Assembly: GCA_900317055.1 (NCBI GenBank)
Contig: ONFF01000008.1
Span: 1-64,000 of the forward strand
From: an uncultured Bacteroidales bacterium
Lineage (GTDB): Bacteria; Bacteroidota; Bacteroidia; Bacteroidales; F082
Direction of reading: 5' to 3'
Length of the DNA stretch: 64,000 bases
The notes beneath the pieces were generated by a model that searched no databases, was not told where the DNA came from, and saw only the letters and a list, made by a program, of their open reading frames with translations. Position numbers and translations under genes: made by a program. Each line of letters opens with the position of its first letter. Position 1 is the stretch's first letter. Of the stretch, positions 17,432 through 30,508 are shown in pieces.

Positions 17432-17839
17432 ATGATCACCTACAAACACGAAGTAAAATATTATGAATGCGACCGTATGGGTGTGACGCATCACTCCAAC
17501 TATGTTCGCTTCATGGAAGAGGCCCGTGTCGACTGGCTCGACCAACTGGGATTCGGCTTTGAGAAAATCGAAGCGGAGAATGTCTTCTCCCCTGTAATTT
17601 CCATCTCATGCGAATACAAACACCCTACGACTTTCAAGGACATCATTGAAATTGAGGTGAAAATCAGCAAGATGAGCGAGATGAAGTTTGAATTCGACTA
17701 TACGATGCGCTCCAACGGCAAGTTGGTCTGCCTCGGACACAGTGCTCATTGCTTCATCGAAAACGGTCGCCCCGTGGCTATCTCAAAGCGCCTCCCCGAC
17801 TTTTATCAATCACTAAAAAGTTATTTATCAGTTGAATAA
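17432..17839 (+). CDS. YbgC/4HBT-like acyl-CoA thioesterase
   Basis: A 135-residue hot-dog thioesterase. YYECDRMGVTHHSNYVRFME carries the YbgC-type active site (Asp in ECDRMG, then HHSNY), and YKHPTTFKDIIEIEV is the next family strand. ATG 17432 is chosen; the 41 upstream in-frame codons are encoded by the palindromic repeat. The stop overlaps the next start (TAATG), so it is translationally coupled to the MMPL exporter, suggesting a joint role in acyl-lipid release or export. Confidence 0.87.
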   Translation: MITYKHEVKYYECDRMGVTHHSNYVRFMEEARVDWLDQLGFGFEKIEAENVFSPVISISCEYKHPTTFKDIIEIEVKISKMSEMKFEFDYTMRSNGKLVCLGHSAHCFIENGRPVAISKRLPDFYQSLKSYLSVE

Positions 17840-20313
17840 TGCATAAAATCTTTGTTCCCATATACCATTACTTCAAAAATCACAAGGTCCTGATGTACCT
17901 GATCATGGTCATCTCGTTCTTGGTATTCCTCTTTTTCGGGCTGCGACTCCATTTCGAGGAGGACATCTCTAAGCTTTTGCCTACCTCAAGTGTAGAGAGC
18001 CAGCTGGCCTTCACCTCAATCCAACTCAAGGACAAGATTTACCTTCAAGTGACCTCAGCCGATGAGCCAGTCTCCCCCAACATCCTTGCCGAACGGACTG
18101 ATGAGTTCGTCAACCTGCTCTACGAGAAGGATTCCACGACCCATTACATTGGCAATGTGCTGTACAAAATGGAGCCTGAGGTGGCCATCAATGCCTTGGA
18201 CTTTGTGCTTGAGCATATCCCTTCCTTCATCGACACCTCAGCCTACAGTAACTTTGAGAAAGCCCTTGAGCCTGAGGCCATCCAGAACCAGATGTGGGTC
18301 AACTACGAGCAGATGATGGAAGACGAGACGGGCGACATCACCCAAGCCATCATGTATGACCCGCTCAACTTGCGCAATGTGGTGCTCGGCGATGTGATGC
18401 AAGGCGCTGTCAACGGCTTCAACATCATCGACGGACAACTCTTCTGCCCCGACAGCACCGTAGCCATCGCCTATCTTGCTCCCGCTTTCCAATCCTTGGA
18501 TTCGAAGGCGGCCAACAAATTCTCCAAAATGCTGAAACAAACGCAAGAGGAATTCGAGACAATCCACCCAGACATAAAAGTGCATGCCCACGGCGACCCC
18601 ATCGGCAGTGTTTCGAATGCCGGACGCATCCGCTCCGACCTTGTCGTGACCGTGGGTATTTCCCTGGTTTTGATATTGATCCTTATCGGCTTGTGTTTCA
18701 GAAACCTTTCTTTCATCTGGGAGCTGTTGTTACCTATCATCTATGGCACAGCCTTCTCGTTGGCGGGCATCTTCTGGATTAAGGGCGAGATGTCGCTCAT
18801 GGCCTTAGGATTGGGAGCCATCGTGCTAGGTGTGGCCATCAGCTACAGCCTGCATGTGCTCATCCACCATTTCTTTGTCGGCGACCCCGAAAAACTGCTA
18901 CAAGACGAGTCTACACCTGTGTTCTTGAGCTGCATCACCACAGTGGGCGCCTTCTGCAGCCTGCTCTTCACCGATAGCGACCTGCTCCGCGACTTCGGAC
19001 TGTTCGCCTCATTCGCCTTGATAGGCTCCACCCTTTTCGCCTTGATCTTCCTGCCTCATTTCTTGCCTGCCCGCAAGGCCGACAGCAACAGCAAGACCTT
19101 CCGCCGCATCTCGCGCCTCAACAACCTGCCCTTCGACAAAAAGCCTTGGTTCTTGATAATGATTGCAGTCATTGTAGTGATAGGCATCATATTCTCACCC
19201 AAGGTGAAATTCGACAATGACCTCCGCAACCTCGACTACAACTCACCCGAGGAAATCATGGCCGAGGGTCTTTATAATACGAAGAATAACGATGGCTTTT
19301 ATCACTTGTATTTTGCTACCGTTTCCACCAACCTCGACGAGGCCTTGGAAGCCGACAAGACGCTCATGGTACTGCTTGATTCCCTGAAGCAAGAAGGTGC
19401 GGTGCATAGTTATACCGATTTCATCCCCAAGCTCTTCGTCACCCAGGCCGACCAAGAGCAACGCATTGCCGCATGGAACGACTTCTGGACCGAAGAAAGG
19501 AAAGCCTACGCCATCTCACGCGTTGAGAAAGGCGCTTTGGAATTCGGCCTCGACCCGATGATGTTCTACGACTTCAAGGAGCTTCTCGATGCCGACTACG
19601 AAACCGCCTCGCTGATGGAAAGCGGTGTGGTACCCGATAACCTTTTGGGCAACTTCATCGAATGCAATGCCGACAACCAATACATGGTGTTCACCGATGT
19701 CTCCATGAACTTCGACGAAAAAGACATCGCCACCGATGCCTTGGTCACCAACCCCAAGACCTTTGTTTTGGAGCCGTTCTATTATTGCAAGAGCATGGTG
19801 GAGGTCATCAACGATGACTTCAACATCGCCGTGTGGATTTCCTCGCTGTTTGTGCTGTTGATCCTCTTGATTTCCTTCCGTAACATCATCACTGCCCTGC
19901 TGTCGTTCCTTCCCATGGTACTCAGTTGGTTCATGGTGCAGGGCTACATGGCCATCATCGGGCTGGAGTTCAACCTCATCAACATCATCATCTCCACCTT
20001 CATTTTTGGTGTGGGTGTCGACTACAGCATCTTCATCACCGAAGGTTTACTTAAGCAAGCGCGCACGGGCGACCGCGATGTACTCACCTGGCACAAGGTG
20101 GCCATCTTCTTCTCGGCCATCATCCTGGTTATCGTGGTGGCCTCGCTCCTCTTCGCCGTCCATCCCGCCATCCGTTCCATCGGTCTCAGCACCCTCATCG
20201 GAATGGCCTCAACCATAATGATTTCTTACTCATTGTTGCCCTTCGCGTTCTGGAGGTTGATGAAATGGCCGTGGTATAAGAGGAATGTGATGAAAAAGGT
20301 CCAAAAGAAATGA
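17839..20313 (+). CDS. MMPL/RND-superfamily lipid exporter
   Basis: An 824-residue RND-type membrane protein with two repeats, each one membrane helix, a large extracytoplasmic domain, then five helices. The first half holds MALGLGAIVLGVAISYSLHV, the second FIFGVGVDYSIFITEGLL; these GxxxD-like helix 4 motifs mark MMPL/HpnN-type lipid transporters that use the proton gradient. Partner of the coupled thioesterase. Similar thioesterase-MMPL pairs occur in Bacteroidetes aryl-polyene or flexirubin-like clusters, but no ketosynthase lies here. The substrate is probably a lipid or acyl conjugate. Confidence 0.85.
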   Translation: MHKIFVPIYHYFKNHKVLMYLIMVISFLVFLFFGLRLHFEEDISKLLPTSSVESQLAFTSIQLKDKIYLQVTSADEPVSPNILAERTDEFVNLLYEKDSTTHYIGNVLYKMEPEVAINALDFVLEHIPSFIDTSAYSNFEKALEPEAIQNQMWVNYEQMMEDETGDITQAIMYDPLNLRNVVLGDVMQGAVNGFNIIDGQLFCPDSTVAIAYLAPAFQSLDSKAANKFSKMLKQTQEEFETIHPDIKVHAHGDPIGSVSNAGRIRSDLVVTVGISLVLILILIGLCFRNLSFIWELLLPIIYGTAFSLAGIFWIKGEMSLMALGLGAIVLGVAISYSLHVLIHHFFVGDPEKLLQDESTPVFLSCITTVGAFCSLLFTDSDLLRDFGLFASFALIGSTLFALIFLPHFLPARKADSNSKTFRRISRLNNLPFDKKPWFLIMIAVIVVIGIIFSPKVKFDNDLRNLDYNSPEEIMAEGLYNTKNNDGFYHLYFATVSTNLDEALEADKTLMVLLDSLKQEGAVHSYTDFIPKLFVTQADQEQRIAAWNDFWTEERKAYAISRVEKGALEFGLDPMMFYDFKELLDADYETASLMESGVVPDNLLGNFIECNADNQYMVFTDVSMNFDEKDIATDALVTNPKTFVLEPFYYCKSMVEVINDDFNIAVWISSLFVLLILLISFRNIITALLSFLPMVLSWFMVQGYMAIIGLEFNLINIIISTFIFGVGVDYSIFITEGLLKQARTGDRDVLTWHKVAIFFSAIILVIVVASLLFAVHPAIRSIGLSTLIGMASTIMISYSLLPFAFWRLMKWPWYKRNVMKKVQKK

Positions 20314-20314
20314 G

Positions 20315-20566
20315 CTATTCCTCGCCCATTCGCGTCTTCATTGCCGCATTGACCTCGGCTGAATAGTATTGGAAGAAGTTGAAACTCATGGCGATGGAGA
20401 TTTTGAGAATTAAATCGGCATCGAGCGAAGGCCTATTGAAGATTTTGTAGACATGGTTGCGGGTGCAGCCAATCTCACGCGAAAGCCAGCCCACGCTGCG
20501 CTGGTCTTTGCGTAGCTGCTCTTGGATGAGGTGCCCGATGTGGATGTTGCTTTGAAGGTTTTCCAT
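20315..20566 (-). CDS. XRE-like helix-turn-helix protein
   Basis: An 83-residue DNA-binding protein. VGWLSREIGCTRNHVYKIFN is a clear HTH with the second helix at TRNHVYKIF. It begins from a divergent promoter with the 20697 regulator gene and ends 1 bp from the MMPL stop (convergent). Probable local repressor; target unknown. Confidence 0.75.
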   Translation of the reverse strand: MENLQSNIHIGHLIQEQLRKDQRSVGWLSREIGCTRNHVYKIFNRPSLDADLILKISIAMSFNFFQYYSAEVNAAMKTRMGEE

Positions 20567-20588
20567 CTGCTCACATAATCGAATAGCG

Positions 20589-20678
20589 CAAAAGTAGCCC
20601 TTAACAGACCTTCATTTTTCATCCATTTCATCCATTTGCATTTTCTTTCGATTCCTAACATGAAAATGCTTATTTTTG
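20589..20678. promoter_or_regulatory. Divergent promoters of the HTH and kinase-associated genes
   Basis: On the minus strand TACTTTTG is at 20589-20596; on the plus strand TATTTTTG is at 20671-20678. Between them lie TTTCATCCATTTCATCCATT repeats, related to those at 27646 and 28616. Confidence 0.5.
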
Positions 20679-20696
20679 CCCAAAATAAGCGAAACC

Positions 20697-21260
20697 ATGT
20701 TATCCCTTCCCGTCATAGCAATGATCAAGAAGAAATCGGGGCTGGACTTCAGTAATGCCAAGGACTTTGAGGTGTTGTCGGAGTCGTTTCCGGCCAGCGA
20801 CCGTTTGGGAGTCAATACCCTGAAGCGGTTGATGGGTTATGCCAAGTCACCCATAGCACCACGTAAAGCCACGCTTGATGCTTTGGCGCATTATCTGGGT
20901 TCGTCCTCTTGGGAGGTGCTGACAGGTATGCAGCCTGTGGAAAGCGACTGGATGGAAAAGGCTTTCTTCGCCGATGAGATTCGCGAAGGCACAACGGTAG
21001 AGGCATCATGGCTACCCAACCGTCATATCGCTTTGCTGTGTATCGGTGAAAACAAGTTTAGGGTGACCGAAAGCCTTAATGGCAAGTTGCAAGTCAACGA
21101 TGAGGTGACCATCCTTAGTTTTCGTTTGGAGTATCCTTTACAGGTGTACCAAGTCATCCGCAATGGCGAGATTGTGCGCGATGCCGCCGGTAACGAGTTG
21201 GGTTATGTAGCAGGCCGACAGAATGGATTGACTGAACTATTCATCAAGGAGGCAGCCTAA
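20697..21260 (+). CDS. Kinase-associated regulator of unknown fold
   Basis: A 187-residue cytoplasmic protein. Its N-terminal third (IKKKSGLDFSNAKDFEVLSE to TLDALAHYLGSSSWEVL) is a block I know from Bacteroidetes, linked to kinase or sensor genes; the APRKATLDALAHYLG part looks like a helix-turn-helix. The rest appears beta-rich. ATG 20697 is used because an earlier in-frame ATG at 20676 sits inside the -7 box. Its TAA overlaps the kinase ATG (TAATG), so the two are coupled. Confidence 0.65.
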   Translation: MLSLPVIAMIKKKSGLDFSNAKDFEVLSESFPASDRLGVNTLKRLMGYAKSPIAPRKATLDALAHYLGSSSWEVLTGMQPVESDWMEKAFFADEIREGTTVEASWLPNRHIALLCIGENKFRVTESLNGKLQVNDEVTILSFRLEYPLQVYQVIRNGEIVRDAAGNELGYVAGRQNGLTELFIKEAA

Positions 21261-22393
21261 TGAGCGATTCCGATTTCATCAATCCTGTACAACACAACCA
21301 AGATGAAGTGTTGTTTGACAGTGGTGGCACCTGTGATTGCTATCGTCTCGTCAAAGACAATCGTGTGTATTGTGTCAAACGGCCCAAGAAGGACATGCGT
21401 TCCTCGGAGGCATACATGAGTTTGTTCCGCAAGGAGTTTGAACTCGGCATCGAGTTGGAGCATCCCAACATTGTGCGTTATTTTGCCTACGATGAGGACG
21501 AACAAGGCCCTTTCATCCGTATGGATTACATTGATGGCGACAGCCTTGATGCTTTTGTGGCCCAGCATCCTGACTATTTCAAAGATAAAGGACATAGGAA
21601 ACAATTCTGCGACGAGTTGTTTTCTGCTTTGTCCTATCTCCACGACAAAAAGATGTTGCACCTCGACCTTAAGCCCAGCAACATCCTCATCACCAACAAA
21701 GGCCATCATGTAAAGCTTATTGATTTAGGTTTCGGTTGGAGCGAGAGATTTCTGCATGATTTGGGTTTCACTCGTGAGTATTGTGCGCCAGAGCAGCAGG
21801 CCGCTAAGACCGAGTTGTTTGGCCCTGCCACCGACATCTATGCCTTGGGCAAGATTTTGCAACATTATGGATTGACCAAGAATTCAGTAACGCAACATTG
21901 TCTGAAGGAAGATCCAAGAGACCGTTACCAAAGCGTTGACGCATTGCGAAAAGCCATGCAACGAAACGAGATGATAGGAATTGCCTCAAGGATGGGGCTA
22001 TGTCTAATTGCAGCAATGCTGATAGGTGCCATTGTTTGGCTGGTAGGCTTCAGGGAAGAGCCACTACCGCCGCGTCCCCCTGCGCCTGAAGGAGCCATCA
22101 ACGGGTTGTTTACCATCAACGAAGCTGGCGACCAGGTGTATTTCTCGAAGGGCAACTTGCAATACAAGCCCTCAATCAACACATGGCGTTTTACTGAAAA
22201 CCAGTTTGACTATATCGGAGGTGACAATGCCAACCTGGGTTCTGCTGAGAAATGCTGCAATTGGTTGGATTTGTTCGCTTGGGGTGCCAGTGGGCGTGAG
22301 CATGGAGCGATTTGTTACCAACCGTGGTGCACAGCCGCGATGTTTTTGAAGACGACGCTTGGCAATATAACGCCTATGGCGTTGACACGCTGA
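21260..22393 (+). CDS. Membrane Ser/Thr kinase, N-terminal part of a frameshifted kinase-FISUMP gene
   Basis: Hanks-type kinase: the ATP lysine in YCVKRPKK, HLDLKPSN as the catalytic loop (HRD with Arg changed to Leu), DLGFG in place of DFG, and APEQ. A membrane helix (MGLCLIAAMLIGAIVWLVGF, about 247-266) leads to an external domain starting INGLFTINEAGDQVYFSKGN, the opening of a FISUMP domain. The frame runs on to GAICYQPW and then loses homology; the rest of the domain is in the next frame. The last 20 or so residues are therefore out-of-frame. The altered catalytic loop suggests low or atypical activity. Confidence 0.8.
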   Translation: MSDSDFINPVQHNQDEVLFDSGGTCDCYRLVKDNRVYCVKRPKKDMRSSEAYMSLFRKEFELGIELEHPNIVRYFAYDEDEQGPFIRMDYIDGDSLDAFVAQHPDYFKDKGHRKQFCDELFSALSYLHDKKMLHLDLKPSNILITNKGHHVKLIDLGFGWSERFLHDLGFTREYCAPEQQAAKTELFGPATDIYALGKILQHYGLTKNSVTQHCLKEDPRDRYQSVDALRKAMQRNEMIGIASRMGLCLIAAMLIGAIVWLVGFREEPLPPRPPAPEGAINGLFTINEAGDQVYFSKGNLQYKPSINTWRFTENQFDYIGGDNANLGSAEKCCNWLDLFAWGASGREHGAICYQPWCTAAMFLKTTLGNITPMALTR

Positions 22394-22896
22394 ACCTATT
22401 TGATGGCGACGGTCAGGCTGACTGGGGTTACAATGCCATCAGCAATGGTGGAAATGAGGAAAACTTATGGCGCACTTTAACCATCGAGGAATGGGATTAC
22501 ATTCTTGAGAAGCGGACTACAGCTTCGGGCATCCGTTATGCAAAAGCAAATGTTGACGGTGTATGGGGCTTGTTATTGCTGCCTGACGACTGGGACAGCA
22601 CCTATTGTCCACTACGGAAATATAACGATGATGATGTTGACTACATTCCCAACAACCTTACCGAGCCTTTCTGGACAGAGAAGGCAGAGGCTCAAGGAGC
22701 GGTGTTTCTTCCGGCGGCAGGAATACGCGATATCTATATTGTAGGCTTGGCAGGCAAGTATGGTCACTATTGGTCGTCATCCTGCCTAAACCCCAAAGAA
22801 GCCTTGGGCATCTACTTCAGCAACAGCTTCTTCTATCATTCCATCACCACCGATAAATGCAGTGGCCGCAGCGTGAGGTTGGTGAGGGATAAATAA
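22312..22896 (+). pseudogene. C-terminal half of the FISUMP domain, frameshifted from the kinase
   Basis: From about 22330 this frame continues the domain: LFDGDGQADWGYNAISNGGN, WRTLTIEEWDYILEKRT, GIRYAKANVDGVWGLLLLPD, VFLPAAG and YWSSSCLNPK, ending SGRSVRLVRDK, all in the order of the Fibrobacter succinogenes major paralogous domain. A -1 shift (loss of one base, or gain of two) near the GTGGTG at 22334 would join it to the kinase. It has no own start or ribosome site. Either a real mutation or a sequencing/assembly error. Confidence 0.8.
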
Positions 22897-22900
22897 GAGT

Positions 22901-22938
22901 CGGGCGAAATCGACCTCAAAACAGGTAGATTTCGCCCG
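22901..22938. terminator. Hairpin between convergent units
   Basis: CGGGCGAAATC / GATTTCGCCCG stem with a 16-nt loop, between the FISUMP frame (+) and the mini zinc-ribbon gene (-). It has no long T-run, so its terminator activity is uncertain. Confidence 0.5.
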
Positions 22939-22945
22939 AAAGGGT

Positions 22946-23041
22946 TCATTTCTTGAAATGCTGGTAGTCTTCAGACATCGGTAGGGGCTGATGATAAGTT
23001 GGGCGCAGCTTCACTTCGGAGCCGCATTTGGGACATTTCAT
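22946..23041 (-). CDS. 31-residue mini zinc-ribbon-like protein
   Basis: A very short frame, MKCPKCGSEVKLRP onward, with one CPKCG knuckle and a C-terminal EDYQHFKK. It starts 5 bp after the Sel1 gene stop on the same strand, as the last member of the operon. With only one CxxC it may bind zinc as a dimer or be a fragment. Two sister genes upstream also carry CxxC knuckles. Confidence 0.45.
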   Translation of the reverse strand: MKCPKCGSEVKLRPTYHQPLPMSEDYQHFKK

Positions 23042-23046
23042 TTCTG

Positions 23047-24978
23047 TTATTTTTGAACTTTATTTGTTAATTCTTCTATTTCCTTTGATATTCGTTCCAA
23101 TTCAACAGTCATTTCATTAATTTGTTCGTTAAATGCTTTTTTATCTTGATTTGCAAGTAAAAGTCTGTTGTTTTTAAAAACTCGGAGCTCATAAACAACC
23201 TTATATCTAATCCAATAACTACCTAAGCAATTATTTGAGCTATCGTATGCAAACAACTCTGTTTGTAACTCGAACGGATAATCCTCAAAACGCAACTTAT
23301 TCTTAATGTCAGATTCATTAAGCAAATACCTCCAATCGTCCCAACGTGTATCGTCCCAATTCAGGGCAGCGGATTTTTCTTCGTGAACTTGTATCACATC
23401 AGTGCTTTTGTCAAATGTGGAACCTGGAGAAAGCGATCTTGTTACGCATTTAAACGAGACGACCTTTCCACGTTGATTTTCAATGTGCAAAGACCAATGA
23501 ACGCCTATGGTTTGTTCATTGTCCTGGGTAACCCATGCTTTTTCAAAAACAGCTTTAGGAAGATTTGGTATTTTTTGGCAATCGTGAGTGGTTATGGCTG
23601 TTGGTTTTAGTTTTGATTCTATCCTTTGAATATGCGCTTCTGTATCGTCACCCAATTCTTTGGCTTTTCGGTACCATTTAAGTGCTTCTGCCAAATCCAC
23701 AGAGACACCATACCCAGTCTCATAACAATAGGCTATACAGCTAATGCTATAAACATCGCCCAATTCCGCAGCTTTGCGATACCACTTGAAAGCTTCTGCT
23801 TCGTTTTGGGTCTCATCATAATAAGCGCTTAGATTAAGCATCGCTGTTACATCGCCCAAATCAGCCGCCTTGCGGAACCATTTGATGGATTCTACTTTAT
23901 CTTGGCCTACGCCTTGACCATTTACATAACAAACGCCTAGATTATACATAGCTTTAGAATTGCCCAAATCAGTAGCCTTACGATACCACTTGACGGCTTC
24001 GGCATGGTCTTGGCTCACACCTTGGCCGTTTTCATAACACCAGCCTAGATTATTCATAGCATCTGCATTGCCCAATTCAGCTGCCTTTCGGTACCATTTG
24101 ACAGCTTCGGAATAGTCTTGATGTACTCCTTGGCCGTTTTCATAATATTGACCTAAATTATACATTGCAACCGCATTGCCCAATTCAACCGCCTTCCAGT
24201 TCCACCTGATGGCTTCATCATAATCTTGGGGTACTCCTTGACCATAACCATAACAAACGCCGATTTTACAAATTGCTACAGCATTGTTTCTTTCAGCCAA
24301 TCGGTTCCAAATGGACAATGCCGTTTCATAATCCTTGTTGTCGTATGCTTCCTGTGCTTTTTTCAACTCGGCATCTTCGTCTGAATTGGCGAAGTCAACA
24401 AAATAGTGATAGGCTCGTTTCATGGCCCATTGTATTCCTTCGATTTGGCAACTTCCATTGCCATTACGTAAAGCAATAGTGCCCCCATTGACATTATACT
24501 CACCATTAGAGTCAAAATAGATACAAACATTTTTGGCTTCGGCTATGCGTTGGATGTCTTTAGGCTGAAGGTCAAACATCATATTAAAATAAACTGTATT
24601 ATTAACTGCATATCCATTTATGCCGGTTATTTCTTCCGACGAATAGTTACATTCTTCATCAAAGGCTCTGTAGCTGTGCTTTGATATACGCTCTTCAGAT
24701 GCCTCCATTTCCATTCTTTCTCCATCAATTTCAAATACAACTTTATTTTGTAATTCAGGGCATACACTATTGAATTTTATAGAAATAACGAACCCGATTT
24801 TAGCTTCGCCATTAGGCGTTTTTCCCTCATAATGGCGAGCAGGGACAATATCCATAACCAAGTCTGCTTTATCAAAGCCAATATCGGCATAAATCACACC
24901 TCTTTTTAAACATTCATAAGTAATGTTATTCATGCCATCATATTTCACTTTAATGGCGTTGTTGGCCGTTCTATTCAT
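23047..24978 (-). CDS. Sel1-like repeat protein
   Basis: A 643-residue protein without a signal peptide. The first ~200 residues are beta-rich and unassigned. From about 215 to 455 there are seven Sel1/TPR-like repeats, each close to AMYNLGxxYENGQGVxQDxxEAVKWYRKAAELG. The last ~190 residues form another beta-rich domain and end in a coiled coil (EQINEMTVELERISKEIEEL). Sel1 repeats bind proteins, so it may be a scaffold. It follows the mini zinc-ribbon genes in the operon with the radical SAM enzyme; a link to peptide maturation is only contextual. Confidence 0.8.
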   Translation of the reverse strand: MNRTANNAIKVKYDGMNNITYECLKRGVIYADIGFDKADLVMDIVPARHYEGKTPNGEAKIGFVISIKFNSVCPELQNKVVFEIDGERMEMEASEERISKHSYRAFDEECNYSSEEITGINGYAVNNTVYFNMMFDLQPKDIQRIAEAKNVCIYFDSNGEYNVNGGTIALRNGNGSCQIEGIQWAMKRAYHYFVDFANSDEDAELKKAQEAYDNKDYETALSIWNRLAERNNAVAICKIGVCYGYGQGVPQDYDEAIRWNWKAVELGNAVAMYNLGQYYENGQGVHQDYSEAVKWYRKAAELGNADAMNNLGWCYENGQGVSQDHAEAVKWYRKATDLGNSKAMYNLGVCYVNGQGVGQDKVESIKWFRKAADLGDVTAMLNLSAYYDETQNEAEAFKWYRKAAELGDVYSISCIAYCYETGYGVSVDLAEALKWYRKAKELGDDTEAHIQRIESKLKPTAITTHDCQKIPNLPKAVFEKAWVTQDNEQTIGVHWSLHIENQRGKVVSFKCVTRSLSPGSTFDKSTDVIQVHEEKSAALNWDDTRWDDWRYLLNESDIKNKLRFEDYPFELQTELFAYDSSNNCLGSYWIRYKVVYELRVFKNNRLLLANQDKKAFNEQINEMTVELERISKEIEELTNKVQK

Positions 24979-24999
24979 ATTTCTGTATGTTTAAGTTTG

Positions 25000-25182
25000 C
25001 TATTTACGTTCTTTCAAATACCCGAAGGCGCATTGGCTGCACTTGAAGCCGCCGCTGCTGTATTTGCCTTGGTGGTGGGGTAGGCAATAGGGACAAATCC
25101 GATAGCCGCATTTGTCGCAAACGTACCATTTGCTTGTGTTGGGAAACTCTTTCCCGCAGCTTTGACAGGGAATATAAACCAT
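25000..25182 (-). CDS. 60-residue zinc-ribbon protein
   Basis: Four CxxC knuckles: CQSCGKEF, CDKCGY, CPYC and CSQC, with HH between the third and fourth, enough for two zinc sites. ATG 25182 is chosen over the upstream TTG at 25191. It lies 21 bp before the Sel1 gene. Function unknown; a double zinc ribbon of this size could bind RNA or protein. Confidence 0.6.
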   Translation of the reverse strand: MVYIPCQSCGKEFPNTSKWYVCDKCGYRICPYCLPHHQGKYSSGGFKCSQCAFGYLKERK

Positions 25183-25221
25183 GATTGTCAAGTTTTGTTT
25201 TTACTAGTTAAAGCAAGTGTG

Positions 25222-25252
25222 AGGAGGGTAGAAATTTCTACCCTCCTTTTTC
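25222..25252 (+). terminator. Strong hairpin with T-run on the plus strand
   Basis: AGGAGGGTAGAAA / TTTCTACCCTCCT is a near-perfect palindrome followed by TTTTT. It lies between two minus-strand zinc-ribbon genes, so its T-run faces the wrong way for them; it could stop antisense reading or stabilise mRNA ends. Confidence 0.5.
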
Positions 25253-25279
25253 ACTTGGAATCGTTGTGAGGGAAACCCA

Positions 25280-25459
25280 TCACTTTTTAACCTCATAGAT
25301 AGTTGGTTCGCTATGACCTCCAGGCCACGAATAACGAACGAGGAACTGGCGTCCACATCTTGAACATTGTGGAGCTGCATTGGTGGTGTATCCTTGTTGA
25401 AATCCCACCTGGGTTGAACTTCCGCAATGCGGACAATTTACATAAAAGAATGCTGTCAT
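25280..25459 (-). CDS. 59-residue zinc-ribbon protein
   Basis: A short frame starting MTAFFYVNCPHCGSSTQVGF, with two knuckles, CPHCG and CSRCG, 20 residues apart, and a C-terminal tail ending IYEVKK. It is a single zinc ribbon by pattern. It begins 25 bp after the putative precursor peptide on the same strand. Confidence 0.55.
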   Translation of the reverse strand: MTAFFYVNCPHCGSSTQVGFQQGYTTNAAPQCSRCGRQFLVRYSWPGGHSEPTIYEVKK

Positions 25460-25484
25460 TTTAATACAATATTATTTACAACAA

Positions 25485-25592
25485 TCATTTCATTGGTGCA
25501 AAATACCAAGAGCAGTGAGCTTGTTGGGTGAAGTTTACGCCGCCTGGATTGGCAACATTGCTAATTTTTGAAACTTTCAATTCGATTTTCAT
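25485..25592 (-). CDS. Putative RiPP precursor peptide (35 residues)
   Basis: ATG at 25592, stop TGA at 25485, 55 bp downstream of the radical SAM/SPASM gene and on the same strand. The first 18 residues (MKIELKVSKISNVANPGG) look like a leader, with Lys/Val/Ile-rich sequence ending in GG. The following 17 (VNFTQQAHCSWYFAPMK) form a core with one Cys, one Trp, one Tyr and two Phe, the sorts of residues radical SAM enzymes cross-link. Too short for a stable fold. Codons are ordinary. No homologue is known to me; the assignment rests on position, size and GG/aromatic pattern. Confidence 0.55.
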   Translation of the reverse strand: MKIELKVSKISNVANPGGVNFTQQAHCSWYFAPMK

Positions 25593-25647
25593 AACTTAAT
25601 GATTTAAAATGTTTTGGTTCGTTTACAGGAAGAACCATTTGTCCTTT

Positions 25648-27171
25648 TTATTGATGTAATAGTTTTCTCTTAAGTAAAGGTGTGTTTATTTTTAGTGATG
25701 ACAAGGCATCTTCAAAACTCTTCCCATCTAACAAGTCTTCTCCCTTTAACAAACTCATCTGTAGACGATACCTTATCTTTGCCAAATCACAAGAACTTTC
25801 GGCAGGTTTGAGATAGTCGCCGTGTTCGATGTAATTCAATCCAGCACAGGGCTTGCAACATTTACAATATTCATAATCACCACAATGCTCATATTCCTCC
25901 ATTGTACAATGACGCCAGCTTTCAAGAAGCGCATTGTTTTCTACAATTTCCTTCCATGTTTTTTCTTTCAGTGAACCAAATGACATCGGGAAGGCAGCAC
26001 ATGCCTGAACTTCTCCATCAGGGGTTATTGAGAAGTCGACAAGACCGACCGTACAGCAGTTCTGATCCATCTTGCATTTTCTTTCAGTAAAAGAATCCAA
26101 ATCAGACAAAAGATTGTCAGATATTCTTTTATCCATCCAAACTACCTTGAATTGCTCTTCCGTCAATCGAAGTTGTCTTGAAAGGCAATCTCCATCGTTG
26201 GACTCTCGGATATTGATTTCAAACTGCGGCTCGGCACCATATTTCTTTGCCAAGTCTGCCACCATATAATAACTATGCAGGTTGGGCTGCATAATACAAC
26301 ATTTCAGGTTCATGGGAACGGCTAAATCGGATAGTTGCTCCACCACTTTCATCGAGCGTTCCCAAGAGCCTTTCACGCGGGTGATAGCATCATGATCTTC
26401 GGCAATGCCGCTGTAGATACTCACACCCACCAAGCGGGGAAAGTAGTTGGCCAAGCGTTCCACCATATCCACAATGCGTTGCCCGTTGGTGAAGACATCA
26501 AAGGCGACCTCTTTTTGGTAGAGATAGTCGATAATGTCCCACACAATGGGTTTCGAGAAGGGGTCGCCACCCGAGAGGCACACCTTCACCAAACCATGCT
26601 CATTTAGGTCGTCAATGATGCGTTTATAGTCGTCGAGGTTCAATTCGTCGCGGTCGCCACGGTGCGACACTTCCTCATCGTTGCGCGTGGCCCCCGGATT
26701 GTAGCAATGGATGCACTTCTCACTGCAGTTGTAAGTCAGCTCAAACATGACCGAAGTCACTGTTTTGCCATCGTCCACGGCATTGTAGTAATCCTGTTCC
26801 GCCGAGGAATTGTCAAAAGGCAGCTTCTCTTTGGTGGTTCTCTCCGTGGTCATTGAGGCCTTGCGTTTAGCTTGAGCCAATTGAGAGCGCATCCGTTTGA
26901 TGTCTTCATCGGTGGGAATGAAGTCCGTCAGTAGGCCTGCATCAATTAAGGTGTCGAAAAACGCCAAGATGGATTCCTCGGCAATGCCCGTGGCAGAGGC
27001 TATCTTTTCCACTTCAACAAGGCCGCTTCGTGGCACGGCAAGCACCTGCCCGATGACATCTGCCGAATACGACTCGAAGAAATAGCTGTAGCCAGCCAAG
27101 AGGTTGTACATCAGGGCTACATGTTTTTTGGCGTTGTAGCGGCCGCAAGTCCAGATGGGTCTATAGTTCAT
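25648..27171 (-). CDS. Radical SAM/SPASM peptide maturase with RRE-like N-terminus
   Basis: A 507-residue enzyme. Residues ~15-85 resemble a PqqD-like winged-helix recognition domain (LVEVEKIASATGIAEESILA then FFDTLIDAGLL). The radical SAM core has CSEKCIHC (Cys149, 153, 156) for the SAM-bound cluster and LSGGDPF (199-205). The C-terminal SPASM-like region has CCTVGLVDFSITPDGEVQAC, then HCTMEEYEHCGDYEYCKCC and a CAGL/SSC end, enough cysteines for two extra 4Fe-4S clusters. Such enzymes modify ribosomal peptides (thioether, cyclophane or epimer chemistry). The adjacent 35-codon frame is the likely substrate. Confidence 0.85.
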   Translation of the reverse strand: MNYRPIWTCGRYNAKKHVALMYNLLAGYSYFFESYSADVIGQVLAVPRSGLVEVEKIASATGIAEESILAFFDTLIDAGLLTDFIPTDEDIKRMRSQLAQAKRKASMTTERTTKEKLPFDNSSAEQDYYNAVDDGKTVTSVMFELTYNCSEKCIHCYNPGATRNDEEVSHRGDRDELNLDDYKRIIDDLNEHGLVKVCLSGGDPFSKPIVWDIIDYLYQKEVAFDVFTNGQRIVDMVERLANYFPRLVGVSIYSGIAEDHDAITRVKGSWERSMKVVEQLSDLAVPMNLKCCIMQPNLHSYYMVADLAKKYGAEPQFEINIRESNDGDCLSRQLRLTEEQFKVVWMDKRISDNLLSDLDSFTERKCKMDQNCCTVGLVDFSITPDGEVQACAAFPMSFGSLKEKTWKEIVENNALLESWRHCTMEEYEHCGDYEYCKCCKPCAGLNYIEHGDYLKPAESSCDLAKIRYRLQMSLLKGEDLLDGKSFEDALSSLKINTPLLKRKLLHQ

Positions 27172-27233
27172 ACTTTCCCTATTATATTAGCATCTTGTTA
27201 AACCAACAAAATCTCTATTAAGCAAAATAATTA

Positions 27234-27521
27234 TTAAGTGAAAATAATCAAAAAACCAGCGATAACAACCGTGGCTACACGGACCCAACCCATAGTTTCA
27301 TCGTCACGTGTATTGGGTAATATCAAATTCACGGCAGCTAATATCGAATACACTATGGATAGCCATAAAGGGATGTTTGTGATCCATGCAATTAACAGTA
27401 ACATGATTGTGCACCAAAGTTTTTTGCTGAAAAACAAAATTATGAACAAACATCCTTTGTTTTCATTGTCTACTTCAGGATTATTATCCAGTTCGTTTTT
27501 TATCTCATCAAAAGTACTCAT
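27234..27521 (-). CDS. Small membrane protein opening the RiPP operon
   Basis: A 95-residue protein with an acidic N-terminus (MSTFDEIKNELDNNPEVDNE) and three hydrophobic stretches (about 24-44, 47-64, 78-94). No family recognised. It is the first gene behind the 27564-27594 promoter and lies 62 bp before the radical SAM gene. A role in export or immunity for the mature peptide is possible but unproven. Confidence 0.6.
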   Translation of the reverse strand: MSTFDEIKNELDNNPEVDNENKGCLFIILFFSKKLWCTIMLLLIAWITNIPLWLSIVYSILAAVNLILPNTRDDETMGWVRVATVVIAGFLIIFT

Positions 27522-27563
27522 AGTTTAAAAGTTTAGACATGAAATCATGTCTATTAGTGAATG

Positions 27564-27594
27564 CAAAAATACAACAATTTTCAAAACAAACAAA
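27564..27594 (-). promoter_or_regulatory. Promoter of the RiPP operon
   Basis: On the minus strand TATTTTTG (27564-27571) with TTTG 19 bp upstream (27591-27594), a good Bacteroidetes -7/-33 pair, about 43 bp before the first ATG. Confidence 0.6.
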
Positions 27595-27645
27595 CTAATT
27601 ATTTGATAATCAATACTTTATTTATCTAAATCAGATACAGAAATT

Positions 27646-27693
27646 GTATCCAAAATGGATAATTTAGGATGGGAATGGATGAAGTGGATGGGG
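27646..27693. repeat. TATCCAAAATGGATAAT direct repeat, copy 1
   Basis: TATCCAAAATGGATAAT, ten variable bases, then ATGGATGAAGTGGATGG. The same 45-bp layout at 28616-28662 lies on the other side of the truncated ATPase gene. Confidence 0.7.
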
Positions 27694-27730
27694 AAAATCG
27701 GTTATGTTTTTCTTTTAGGAAGTCCAAGGC

Positions 27731-28468
27731 TTATAATCCCAAATCGAGGCACCACTCGTAAACGGGTTGCACTTTGATTTGGCGACCGTCTTCTTCAATT
27801 GTGGCTCTTTCGTGGTCGGTAAGCAAAAGAAGATTGGTACATCCTGTTTGTCGGGCGGCAAGCAAAAGCCCTCCAATTTCCCTTTTTCGTGTTTTTTCGG
27901 CCACGATGTCGTATGACACCTGTATGGCTTGAATCACAATGTTTCCTTTGCACACCACAAAGTCGCATTCACCATATCGTTCGTTTAGGTAATACACGTC
28001 CAAATCGTCCATCTTGCATTTGCGCACAAGGTGGATTAACACGATGGTTTCAAGCCGGTGGCCGAGGTTGTCGCCTGCGAAAGCATTGTCCCGTTGGTTC
28101 ATCATGGCTACATCAACGGCATACACTTTCTCTTGCACGACCCTCACCTTACTTTTCTGTGAGTATTTCTCCACCCCTATCAACAAATAGGCTTGTTTTA
28201 GATGTTCCACATAGTTTTTTGCCGTATGCTCCGATTTGAAGTGGAACACTTCGGCCAAAGTTTTCGGTACTACTATTGTTGGCGAGATATTCAACAAATG
28301 GTGCGCCAGCCTTTCAAATGCCGCTTTATAAGCAATCTTGTATCTCTGTTCAATGTCGCGTTTCAATATGTTGTCGACAAGGGTCTTGACATAGGTCTTG
28401 TTGTCACTTATGGAAAGAAGTTCGGGGACAAAAAATCTAAAACGCGTTATTTTACCAAATTTAATCAT
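27731..28468 (-). pseudogene. Truncated AAA_14/DUF4143 ATPase (C-terminal half)
   Basis: A 245-codon frame containing only the DUF4143 domain: YVKTLVDNILKRDIEQRYKI, the switch helix region, LGHRLETIVLIHLVRK, ECDFVV and IQVSYDIVAEKTRKREIGGL, ending PVYEWCLDLGL. Full-length relatives have about 390-400 residues with an N-terminal P-loop ATPase, absent here. The first dozen codons come from a 23-bp repeat that sits where the ATPase domain should join. It may still be translated but cannot hydrolyse ATP. Confidence 0.75.
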
Positions 28469-28491
28469 CTAAAACGCGTTATTTTACCAAA
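28437..28491. repeat. 23-bp direct repeat pair at the break of the DUF4143 gene
   Basis: Two exact copies starting CTAAAACGCGTTATTTTACC (28437-28459 and 28469-28491) with a 9-bp spacer that contains the ATG of the truncated gene. Confidence 0.85.
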
Positions 28492-28615
28492 TTTTTGAGC
28501 TTTTCAATGCATTATTTTCCATCATAAATCAGCGAAATGTATCTTGATTTCGACGATTCGCGATGTAATTCCTCATTTTATCACTCAAACCAAATATGCC
28601 TCCGACCATATAAAC

Positions 28616-28662
28616 CATATCCAAAATGGATAATCAGGCATAGAAATGGATGAAATGGATGG
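28616..28662. repeat. TATCCAAAATGGATAAT direct repeat, copy 2
   Basis: Partner of 27646-27693, same orientation, about 970 bp away; the ATGGATGAAATGGATGG half also resembles 20617-20640. Confidence 0.7.
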
Positions 28663-28699
28663 ATTTTAAGAAACAAATGCTCTGCATTGGCTCCACCGA

Positions 28700-28746
28700 A
28701 ATCCTCGATTCAGCGTAGCTAATCTTCGATTTCAACATAGTTAAAT
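28700..28746. repeat. GATTCAGCGTAGCTAATC repeat
   Basis: ATTCAGCGTAGCTAATCTTC followed by GATTTCAACATAG; related copies at 49288-49322 and (inverted and diverged) 9181-9216. Apart from this, the repeats above and the promoter below, I see nothing in the 400-bp gap 28469-28870. Confidence 0.6.
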
Positions 28747-28838
28747 CTTACAAAAATCTGTCAAAAATCACTTTTCAAGTCAACTTCTCGAAACAGGTAC
28801 AGGCAGAAATGCCACTTATATACGTTCAAAAAAATCCG

Positions 28839-28846
28839 TATTTTTG
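28839..28846 (+). promoter_or_regulatory. -7 box of the fakA unit
   Basis: TATTTTTG, 25 bp before the ATG. Confidence 0.55.
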
Positions 28847-28870
28847 CAGACTTTTTGAAAAACATTCTGC

Positions 28871-30508
28871 ATGCAGAAAACCACTGAACTCGATAGCCTG
28901 ACTTTCGCCGCTATGCTGCGCCAAGGCGCGGTGCAACTGGGCAGGGACAAAAAGGTCATCAACGACCTCAACGTCTTCCCTATCCCCGACGGCGACACGG
29001 GCGACAACATGCTGATGACCCTCAAGGCAGGATGTACTGCCTTGAACGACCAACTCGGTACCCTTTCTGAACTAGCCTCAGCAGCTTCTTCGGGTATGCT
29101 GCTCGGCGCAAGAGGTAACTCTGGCGTCATACTCTCACGAATCTTCGCTGGCCTCGCCAAAGGTCTGCAAGGCGTCATCGAAGCCGACACAAAGGCCCTC
29201 GCCAATGCCATGCAATCCGCTGTGGAAGAGGCTTACAAATCCGTACCCGTTCCCGTGGAAGGCACCATCATCACCGTACTGCGCGAAGGCGTGGCAGGCG
29301 CAGATAGCAGTGTCGACTTGAACCATTATTTTGAGACCTTATTGGAGGCCATGCAGGTCTCCTTAGACCATACGCCCGAACTGCTCCAAGTGCTGAAAGA
29401 CGCAGGCGTGGTCGATAGCGGCGGCGCTGGACTAGTGAGCATCTTCCGAGGCATGAACGAGGCTTTGAACGGCATCATTTCAGAAGAAGAAATTGCACCT
29501 ACTTCGGCCGCTACACCTACCGTTGAACTCGACAAGTTCACCGAAGACAGCACCCTGGAATACGGCTACTGCACGGAATTCCTACTCCGTTTGATGCGTT
29601 CAAAAGTCGACCTCAACACCTTTGACGAAAAAGAAATCTTTGACTATCTGAACCGCGTCGGTGAGTCGGTGGTGGCCTTCCGCGAAGGCACCATCGTGAA
29701 AGTGCACGTGCATACCTTCACACCTGGTGAGATCCTTAATGAGATGCAGAAATATGGCGAGTTCCTGACCATCAAGATCGAGAACATGGCCCTGCAACAC
29801 CACCAATCGACGAACCAAAACAACGCCTCGTTCAAGCTACCGCCCAAGCCTTACGGCATCGTGACCGTAGCCTCAGGTGGCGGGCTCATCCAAGCCTTCC
29901 ACGAGATTGGCGCGGATGAAGTGATTGCTGGTGGTCAGACCATGAACCCATCGACACAGGACTTCCTGGACGCCTTTGCCCGCATCAACGCGCAACACAT
30001 CCTTGTCTTCCCCAACAACAAGAACATCAAGATGGCCGCCGACCAGGCTGCCGAACTCTATAAAGACGCTGACATCCATGTGCTTCCATCGACCACTATC
30101 GGCGAAGGCTACTATGGTATCGGCTACATCGACCGCGACAATCCCAATGTTGATGAAATCATCGCCAGCGTCACGGAAATCATGCAATCCGTGGTGACAG
30201 GCATGGTCTCTACCGCCATCCGCGATGCCGAAGGCGACCAAGTGAGCGTCCACACGGGCGACTTTGTGGGATACAGCGGCAAACAAATCCTTTCCGACAG
30301 TCCCGACCGCGAAACGGCCACCAAAGCCCTCATTGAACGCCTTGGTGCAGCTTCGCGTGATGTGATGCTGGTATTCTATGGCGAGGATGTCCCTTCAGAA
30401 GAAGCGGAACGCCTCGTCGCCGACCTGCAAACCCAATACAAAAACCTTGAAATTATGCTGAACAACGGCGCACAGCCGGTTTACGATTATATAATTGTTT
30501 GTATATGA
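28871..30508 (+). CDS. fakA: Fatty acid kinase catalytic subunit FakA-like (DAK2/YloV)
   Basis: A 545-residue DhaL-domain protein. NVFPIPDGDTGDNML (about 36-50) is the ATP/Mg site of DhaL kinases, and ARGNSGVILSRIFAG the next conserved block. The middle and C-terminal parts match the FakA/YloV layout (ILVFPNNKNIKMAADQAAEL, TTIGEGYYG). FakA phosphorylates fatty acids held by FakB to acyl-phosphate. A FakB-like gene follows 100 bp later, separated by a repeat, and PlsX lies 2.4 kb on. Confidence 0.88.
   Translation: MQKTTELDSLTFAAMLRQGAVQLGRDKKVINDLNVFPIPDGDTGDNMLMTLKAGCTALNDQLGTLSELASAASSGMLLGARGNSGVILSRIFAGLAKGLQGVIEADTKALANAMQSAVEEAYKSVPVPVEGTIITVLREGVAGADSSVDLNHYFETLLEAMQVSLDHTPELLQVLKDAGVVDSGGAGLVSIFRGMNEALNGIISEEEIAPTSAATPTVELDKFTEDSTLEYGYCTEFLLRLMRSKVDLNTFDEKEIFDYLNRVGESVVAFREGTIVKVHVHTFTPGEILNEMQKYGEFLTIKIENMALQHHQSTNQNNASFKLPPKPYGIVTVASGGGLIQAFHEIGADEVIAGGQTMNPSTQDFLDAFARINAQHILVFPNNKNIKMAADQAAELYKDADIHVLPSTTIGEGYYGIGYIDRDNPNVDEIIASVTEIMQSVVTGMVSTAIRDAEGDQVSVHTGDFVGYSGKQILSDSPDRETATKALIERLGAASRDVMLVFYGEDVPSEEAERLVADLQTQYKNLEIMLNNGAQPVYDYIIVCI

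Follow-up and report, generated by a model that had tools for sequence, protein, structure and literature searches.

All parts of the unit lie on the minus strand of the window (the whole 64,000-nt stretch that was analysed), in the order promoter-like site, 95-aa membrane protein, 507-aa enzyme, and 35-codon frame (Table 1). The first-pass annotation had placed the membrane gene, the radical SAM/SPASM enzyme, and the short frame at the correct positions, and their strand is minus. In the window, 55 bp separate the enzyme from the short frame. The enzyme and peptide are read here as a two-gene pathway for a ribosomally made, post-translationally modified peptide (RiPP), in which the peptide leader would dock and the enzyme would modify the core, with a probability of about 0.83.

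Table 1. Features of the unit and its surroundings, in positions of the window
Feature	Positions	Strand	Sequence or residues	Basis
Precursor peptide gene, 35 codons + stop	25485..25592	-	MKIELKVSKISNVANPGG followed by VNFTQQAHCSWYFAPMK	Homologous frames, dN/dS, cross-validated profile
Probable core	25488..25538	-	Last 17 residues, VNFTQQAHCSWYFAPMK	Register by position; unchanged vs L015
Radical SAM/SPASM peptide maturase	25648..27171	-	507 aa	Pfam, AF2, Foldseek/VIA, hmmsearch
RRE-like N-terminal domain	26941..27171	-	Residues 1-77	AF2 secondary structure; SuiB 5v1t alignment
CxxxCxxC	26704..26727	-	C149, C153, C156	Invariant, 63 aligned enzymes
SPASM cysteines C373-C461	25789..26055	-	C-x12-G-x4-C, then C430, C436, C439, C442, C461	
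Exchanged unit, SPASM half to precursor gene; right end approximate	25485..26211	-	From about residue 320	
Small membrane protein, hydrophobic	27234..27521	-	95 aa	Sequence, by eye
Bacteroidetes-type promoter-like site	27564..27594	-	TTTG-n-TAnnTTTG	Pattern
Palindrome upstream of unit, possible operator	27647..27661	-	TATCCATTTTGGATA	Genome pattern count

At E 1e-40, 12/99 genomes of the genus had the enzyme, the genome of the window among them; at E 1e-70, it was present in 7/393 evenly drawn genomes of the order (5/206 genera). A scan of named genomes gave 65 enzyme loci on Bacteroidales contigs; L079, which had 41 residues only, was dropped before all counts, and the other 64 together with the window make up the 65 loci analysed. 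L004 is the same locus as L015. Where titles give a source site, it was rumen, reticulum, abomasum, hindgut, or faeces. The enzyme alignment (A4) had 63 rows, L056 (a stop inside the enzyme) and L072 being excluded.

A frame of 27-41 residues follows the enzyme in 63/65 loci (34 residues in 36 of them, usually about 50 bp downstream), which is an upper count in which a few frames may be wrong, because the best candidate per locus was taken. Frames were chosen in each locus by the highest score against a seed profile; those of L051, L058, L065, and L076 scored below 10 bits. As picked, the frame started no more than 80 bp past the enzyme stop in 60/63 loci, and the two loci with no frame were L028, where the contig ends, and L072, where the enzyme is cut short. 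L049 and L064 have two precursor-like frames each; the script took the second, and the other copy also lies within 80 bp of the enzyme stop. In L049 the copies are near-identical and about 170 bp apart, and in L064 the two peptides differ.

For cross-validation, a precursor profile was built from alternate loci and run against every ATG-started short frame of the remaining loci (about 5,000 per half). The frame just 3' of the enzyme ranked first in 61/63 loci, the misses being L057 and L065, although the halves are not independent because relatives stand in both. The scores had a median of 47.7 bits (window, 20.5), and the best decoys had a median of 5.3 and a maximum of 12.0. Between the window and L015, the codon changes show purifying selection on the short peptide, the outcome that the first-pass annotation's own check called for: ten are synonymous and two replace a codon (dN 0.036, dS 0.81), both replacements fall in the leader, and none lies within the last 17 residues. 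The frame is short and the first reading of it had no relatives to draw on, which had left room for a chance reading frame. Conservation in 63/65 loci and the codon changes against L015 refute that reading, the cross-validated profile also speaks against it, and its remaining probability is negligible. Judged by these comparisons of sequence, the 35-codon frame is a real gene and chance is excluded.

Pfam assigned Radical_SAM (5.6e-17) and SPASM (1.9e-06) to the enzyme, and the CxxxCxxC and SPASM cysteines were invariant in the 63 aligned enzymes (C436 nearly so), both in line with the cysteine motifs first noted. An RRE domain is generally composed of three strands and three helices. In the AF2 model, computed from the 63-row alignment (mean pLDDT 92.3), residues 8-77 form three strands and then three helices, the RRE arrangement as also described in the available part of PMC10352776. 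Chain 1-439 of SuiB (5v1t) aligned with residues 1-465 of the model, that is, from residue 1. The PqqD/RRE-like N-terminus that had been proposed is thus supported by topology and by the SuiB alignment but not by a sequence profile, as the Pfam scan of the N-terminus gave no PqqD match and only a sub-threshold wHTH at 43-83 (E 0.07). The predicted model shows the three expected domains in one enzyme, an RRE-like N-terminus, a radical SAM barrel, and a SPASM domain.

The nearest solved folds (Foldseek/VIA) included CteB, SkfB, ChlB, anSME, SuiB, and PqqE, and the best folds were mostly peptide or protein maturases. By sequence, the nearest were SkfB (hmmsearch 1e-16), PqqE, and CteB. The cut-off was reached by none of the best 25 of 53 NCBIfam models matching the window enzyme; the AlbA model, for example, gave 85 bits against a cut-off of 850. 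For the enzymes of three relatives, no model among the NCBIfam matches listed reached its cut-off.

Across the family the leader is conserved and the core is variable, with 61 distinct peptides among 63. Shared leader positions (gap-free) were Lys2 (52/63), Leu5 (41/63), Ser8 (36/63), Ser11 (42/63), and Val13 (37/63). A C-x7-C-G-I/V core occurs in 39/63 peptides, and all 39 CG[IV] peptides keep the spacing of 7; in these, Tyr stands two residues past I/V in 33/39 and Arg at the next place in 38/39. The remaining cores are, for example, more Cys-rich or SSCPTVLVK-like. At least two Cys are found in 59/63 peptides, and the window core has a single one, in register with the second Cys of C-x7-C-G-I/V, with Val at the place of the first. 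The window and L015 have CSWYF where the usual core has CGIMY. This type, with one Cys and HCSWYF, is confined to these two of the 63 peptides, so the conserved HCSWYF core expected at first did not emerge; what is conserved instead is the leader and, in 39/63, C-x7-C-G-I/V.

The GG that had been proposed as the leader end proved not to be a family feature. It occurs anywhere in 7/63 peptides and at residues 17-18 in 3/63 (window, L015, and L039, the last with Cys directly after GG), so that a GG protease is not a family feature and GG cleavage is unsupported; the GG-leader reading was ruled out on this ground. As far as the family shows, the leader would not be removed by a GG-specific (C39) protease. 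No C39 exporter was identified at the locus, nor any dedicated exporter or protease near the unit.

In the proposed pathway, the ribosome would make the 35-residue peptide, its N-terminal leader (approximately MKIELKVSKISNVANP) would dock on the RRE-like N-terminus of the enzyme, and the radical SAM/SPASM enzyme would then alter the C-terminal core by radical chemistry. Both the role of the peptide as substrate and the nature of the change, a crosslink, are inferred here. For the usual core, we would expect thioether or C-C links in which the two cysteines or residues of the Ile/Tyr/Arg tail take part. The window core has lost the first Cys and the Arg, so its link would be expected to fall inside HCSWYF, either on Cys27 or on the aromatic residues. 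The idea of a ribosomal peptide modified by radical SAM chemistry is therefore retained on the conserved pair, the domains, and the folds, and gives up the GG leader end and the conserved HCSWYF core. The fixed C-x7-C-G-I/V core in most loci makes the chemistry testable.

Two other roles were weighed for the pair. The peptide may be processed into a small redox cofactor or a signal that stays in the cell and is not exported, as for PQQ and mycofactocin. Such a product would suit a single small peptide with no obvious exporter (an ABC signature lay on the same strand no more than 4 kb away in 4/65 loci, one of these being the kinase frame of cluster 3), and the mycofactocin maturase was the third-best NCBIfam match among the best 25 of 53, though far below its cut-off (96.8 vs 265 bits). 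The highly variable core (61/63 distinct) and the patchy occurrence in 12/99 genus and 7/393 order genomes argue against it, as does the lack of a dehydrogenase among the ten neighbour proteins scanned by Pfam, and we consider a cofactor or retained signal unlikely. Alternatively, the enzyme may act on another protein or on a small molecule, with the peptide as its allosteric or structural partner. The RRE-like domain, the SPASM domain, best folds that are mostly peptide or protein maturases, and a peptide gene that travels with the SPASM half all weigh against this role, for which it can be said that there is no known product and that other small frames trail the peptide at many loci; it is a very improbable one.

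The window enzyme combines two histories. DNA identity between the window and L016 falls from 78-97% to 43-67% at residue 320/321, and protein identity with the sisters L005-L009 is 70-100% per block up to alignment column 300 and 30-55% past column 340, where L004 is still 87-100% identical to the window enzyme. In trees of 15 of the 63 rows, the N-terminal half placed the window with L016 and L019 (98/97) and rejected a window+L015 clade (p-AU 9.5e-5), whereas the C-terminal half gave a window+L015 clade (100/100) and rejected window+L016 (p-AU 1.8e-4). These AU p values are somewhat generous, because the test clades were named after the identities were known; the log-likelihood differences of the rejected clades, 68 and 373, are large. 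The window peptide is 94% identical to that of L004/L015 and 26-35% identical to nine other aligned peptides.

Partial Mantel tests were restricted to 40 of the 63 rows (38 CG[IV] peptides, the window, and L015), because the other cores could not be set in register. The core correlated with the SPASM half given the RRE at 0.54 (0/2000 permutations) and with the RRE given SPASM at -0.38; the leader correlated with the RRE given SPASM at 0.35 (0/2000) and with SPASM given the RRE at 0.33 (5/2000). When the window pair was removed, the core-SPASM correlation was weak (0.19, reached by 48/2000 permutations). A near-identical core is found in L016, L018, and L023, yet the SPASM half of L023 groups elsewhere, which counts against strict coupling. 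Relative to the N-terminal half of the enzyme, the SPASM half and the peptide gene of the window lineage have been exchanged jointly (AU p about 1e-4), moving as one 3' module. In the window, the RRE and barrel are thus the same and the SPASM half and core are different, which makes it a natural experiment that can reveal which part of the maturase sets the site and type of modification.

The rest of the pathway differs by locus; some other loci have a SelO-fold protein or an M42-type peptidase behind the peptide. The SelO-fold protein gene is found in 29/64 related loci, on the same strand in 29/29. The SelO-like protein is absent from the window genome, and no M42-type peptidase was found at the window locus. 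The predicted model of the accessory protein adopts the SelO fold; compared with the SelO/YdiU protein adenylyltransferase it has 283 vs 478 residues, and unlike in SelO, the Asp before Asn is replaced by Gln (27/29) or Glu (2/29). One representative gave no Pfam PF02696 (SelO) match at E 0.5, and an hhalign comparison with E. coli SelO fell short of significance (E 0.17, probability 0.4%), so the link to SelO is based on the fold and the spacing of motifs. When 60 genomes of the order were searched with Pfam SelO, none had a match (0/60). The modelled fold of this partner suggests a second modification, unseen for RiPPs in the literature searched, where nothing was found on SelO combined with radical SAM and RiPP.

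Among other neighbours, L059, L063, L066, L070, and L071 have a 194-225-aa protein upstream whose end abuts the enzyme start, and one representative of it gave no significant Pfam family. A 97-aa membrane protein lies downstream in the same five loci and in L065 and L069. Neither protein co-occurs with the SelO-like gene.

No curated family naming this enzyme and peptide family was found: the window peptide had no match in Pfam or NCBIfam, and ten other precursors (eleven with the window) had none in NCBIfam. The literature searched covered few subscription journals and included the available parts of PMC10352776, PMC12599244, PMC13289728, and PMC8241843; no description of the family was recognised in it, and the original statement that no described family has such a core holds to that extent. 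The sactipeptide and ranthipeptide maturases (SkfB, CteB, AlbA) are near in fold, but no curated NCBIfam cut-off was reached among the best 25 of 53 models, and their Cys-to-carbon thioether is a prediction for the window family. The streptide synthase SuiB is 13% identical to the window enzyme, and to our knowledge SuiA is dissimilar to the window peptide. The Bacteroidales GG-leader RiPPs with C39 exporters, as described in the available part of PMC10352776, share the order, a radical SAM maturase, and a small precursor; unlike these, the window family has a leader-end GG in 3/63 peptides only and no C39 exporter at the locus. The pair apparently belongs to an undescribed radical SAM RiPP family, marked by an unusual partner and by a domain exchange that can be seen in its sequences. 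With 63 loci found, the family is a sizeable, as yet unnamed addition to the modified peptides of uncultured gut Bacteroidales. More speculatively, this may be a new RiPP class in which, where present, a SelO-fold pseudokinase nucleotidylates the crosslinked peptide, and in which a cassette of the SPASM half and peptide gene hops onto a resident RRE-barrel half and yields the window-type chemistry in one step; we regard this extended proposal as doubtful, with a modest chance of being right.

The small membrane protein does precede the enzyme, as originally noted, and its membership in the unit is uncertain: by eye, a similar frame stands before the enzyme in just the window and L004 among the 12 genus loci. 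The Bacteroidetes promoter proposed for the start of the unit was recovered as a pattern match, which is weak evidence, as four TTTG-n-TAnnTTTG matches were observed in the window against 1.48 expected, and the promoter region also precedes other genes in the islands of G061 and G052, both of which lack the enzyme. The 3.5-Mb genome contains the palindrome TATCCATTTTGGATA twice without mismatch, both times here, and once more, with a mismatch, at another place; the reversed control pattern gave 1 hit. With up to two mismatches allowed, the palindrome was found in the 1.5 kb upstream of the enzyme at 9/65 loci.

An 8.5-kb island contains the unit; the genes on its two sides, at 17839-20313 and 28871-30508, we take to be an MMPL-type exporter and a FakA/DAK-like protein, respectively. 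Both flanking genes were searched in 60 genus genomes, and in 10 of these the two matches end no more than 11 bp apart. The 20313-28871 junction holds islands of 7-10 kb with different content in G061, G052, and the window. The junction looks like an insertion hot spot. In G061, an assembly that is 77% complete, the DNA of both flanks is 95% identical to that of the window; the island there has the kinase, the zinc ribbons, and the promoter region, and 39 other bases replace window positions 25463-27550 (membrane gene, enzyme, and peptide). By this DNA alignment, G061 is an empty site for the cassette of these three genes.

The range first annotated also includes a 59-aa zinc-ribbon-like frame at 25280-25459, which is probably outside the system because the near relative keeps it without the enzyme. 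Both this protein and a 63-aa zinc-ribbon-like protein at 25000-25191 were rejected as parts, both being in the G061 island without the enzyme. The 63-aa protein lies near the enzyme in L004, L007, L009, and L010.

A plasmid origin was discarded, since plasmid matches were all below 60% identity and none covered 80%, and so was a virus origin, as the viral_contigs set held no relative of the enzyme or the SelO-like protein. A defence system was likewise rejected: the PADLOC matches of the enzyme are to general radical SAM models (viperin, 2e-13), and those of the nearby kinase are to kinase models.

At 20676-22393, a gene for a 194-aa protein overlaps a Ser/Thr kinase gene. On either strand, members of the 194-aa family were found no more than 8 kb from the enzyme in 22/65 loci and members of the kinase family in 21/65. 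The pair looks like a hallmark of the island, because the islands of G061 and G052, which lack the enzyme, have it too; other relatives of the kinase are found elsewhere in the genome. At 27647-28662, a DUF4143 protein (27731-28468) is flanked by 45-nt direct repeats that are 84% alike. It is PADLOC PDC-S01-like, matching the later part of the profile only. The repeats hold the only two exact copies of the palindrome in the genome, and G061 is without the DUF4143 insert.
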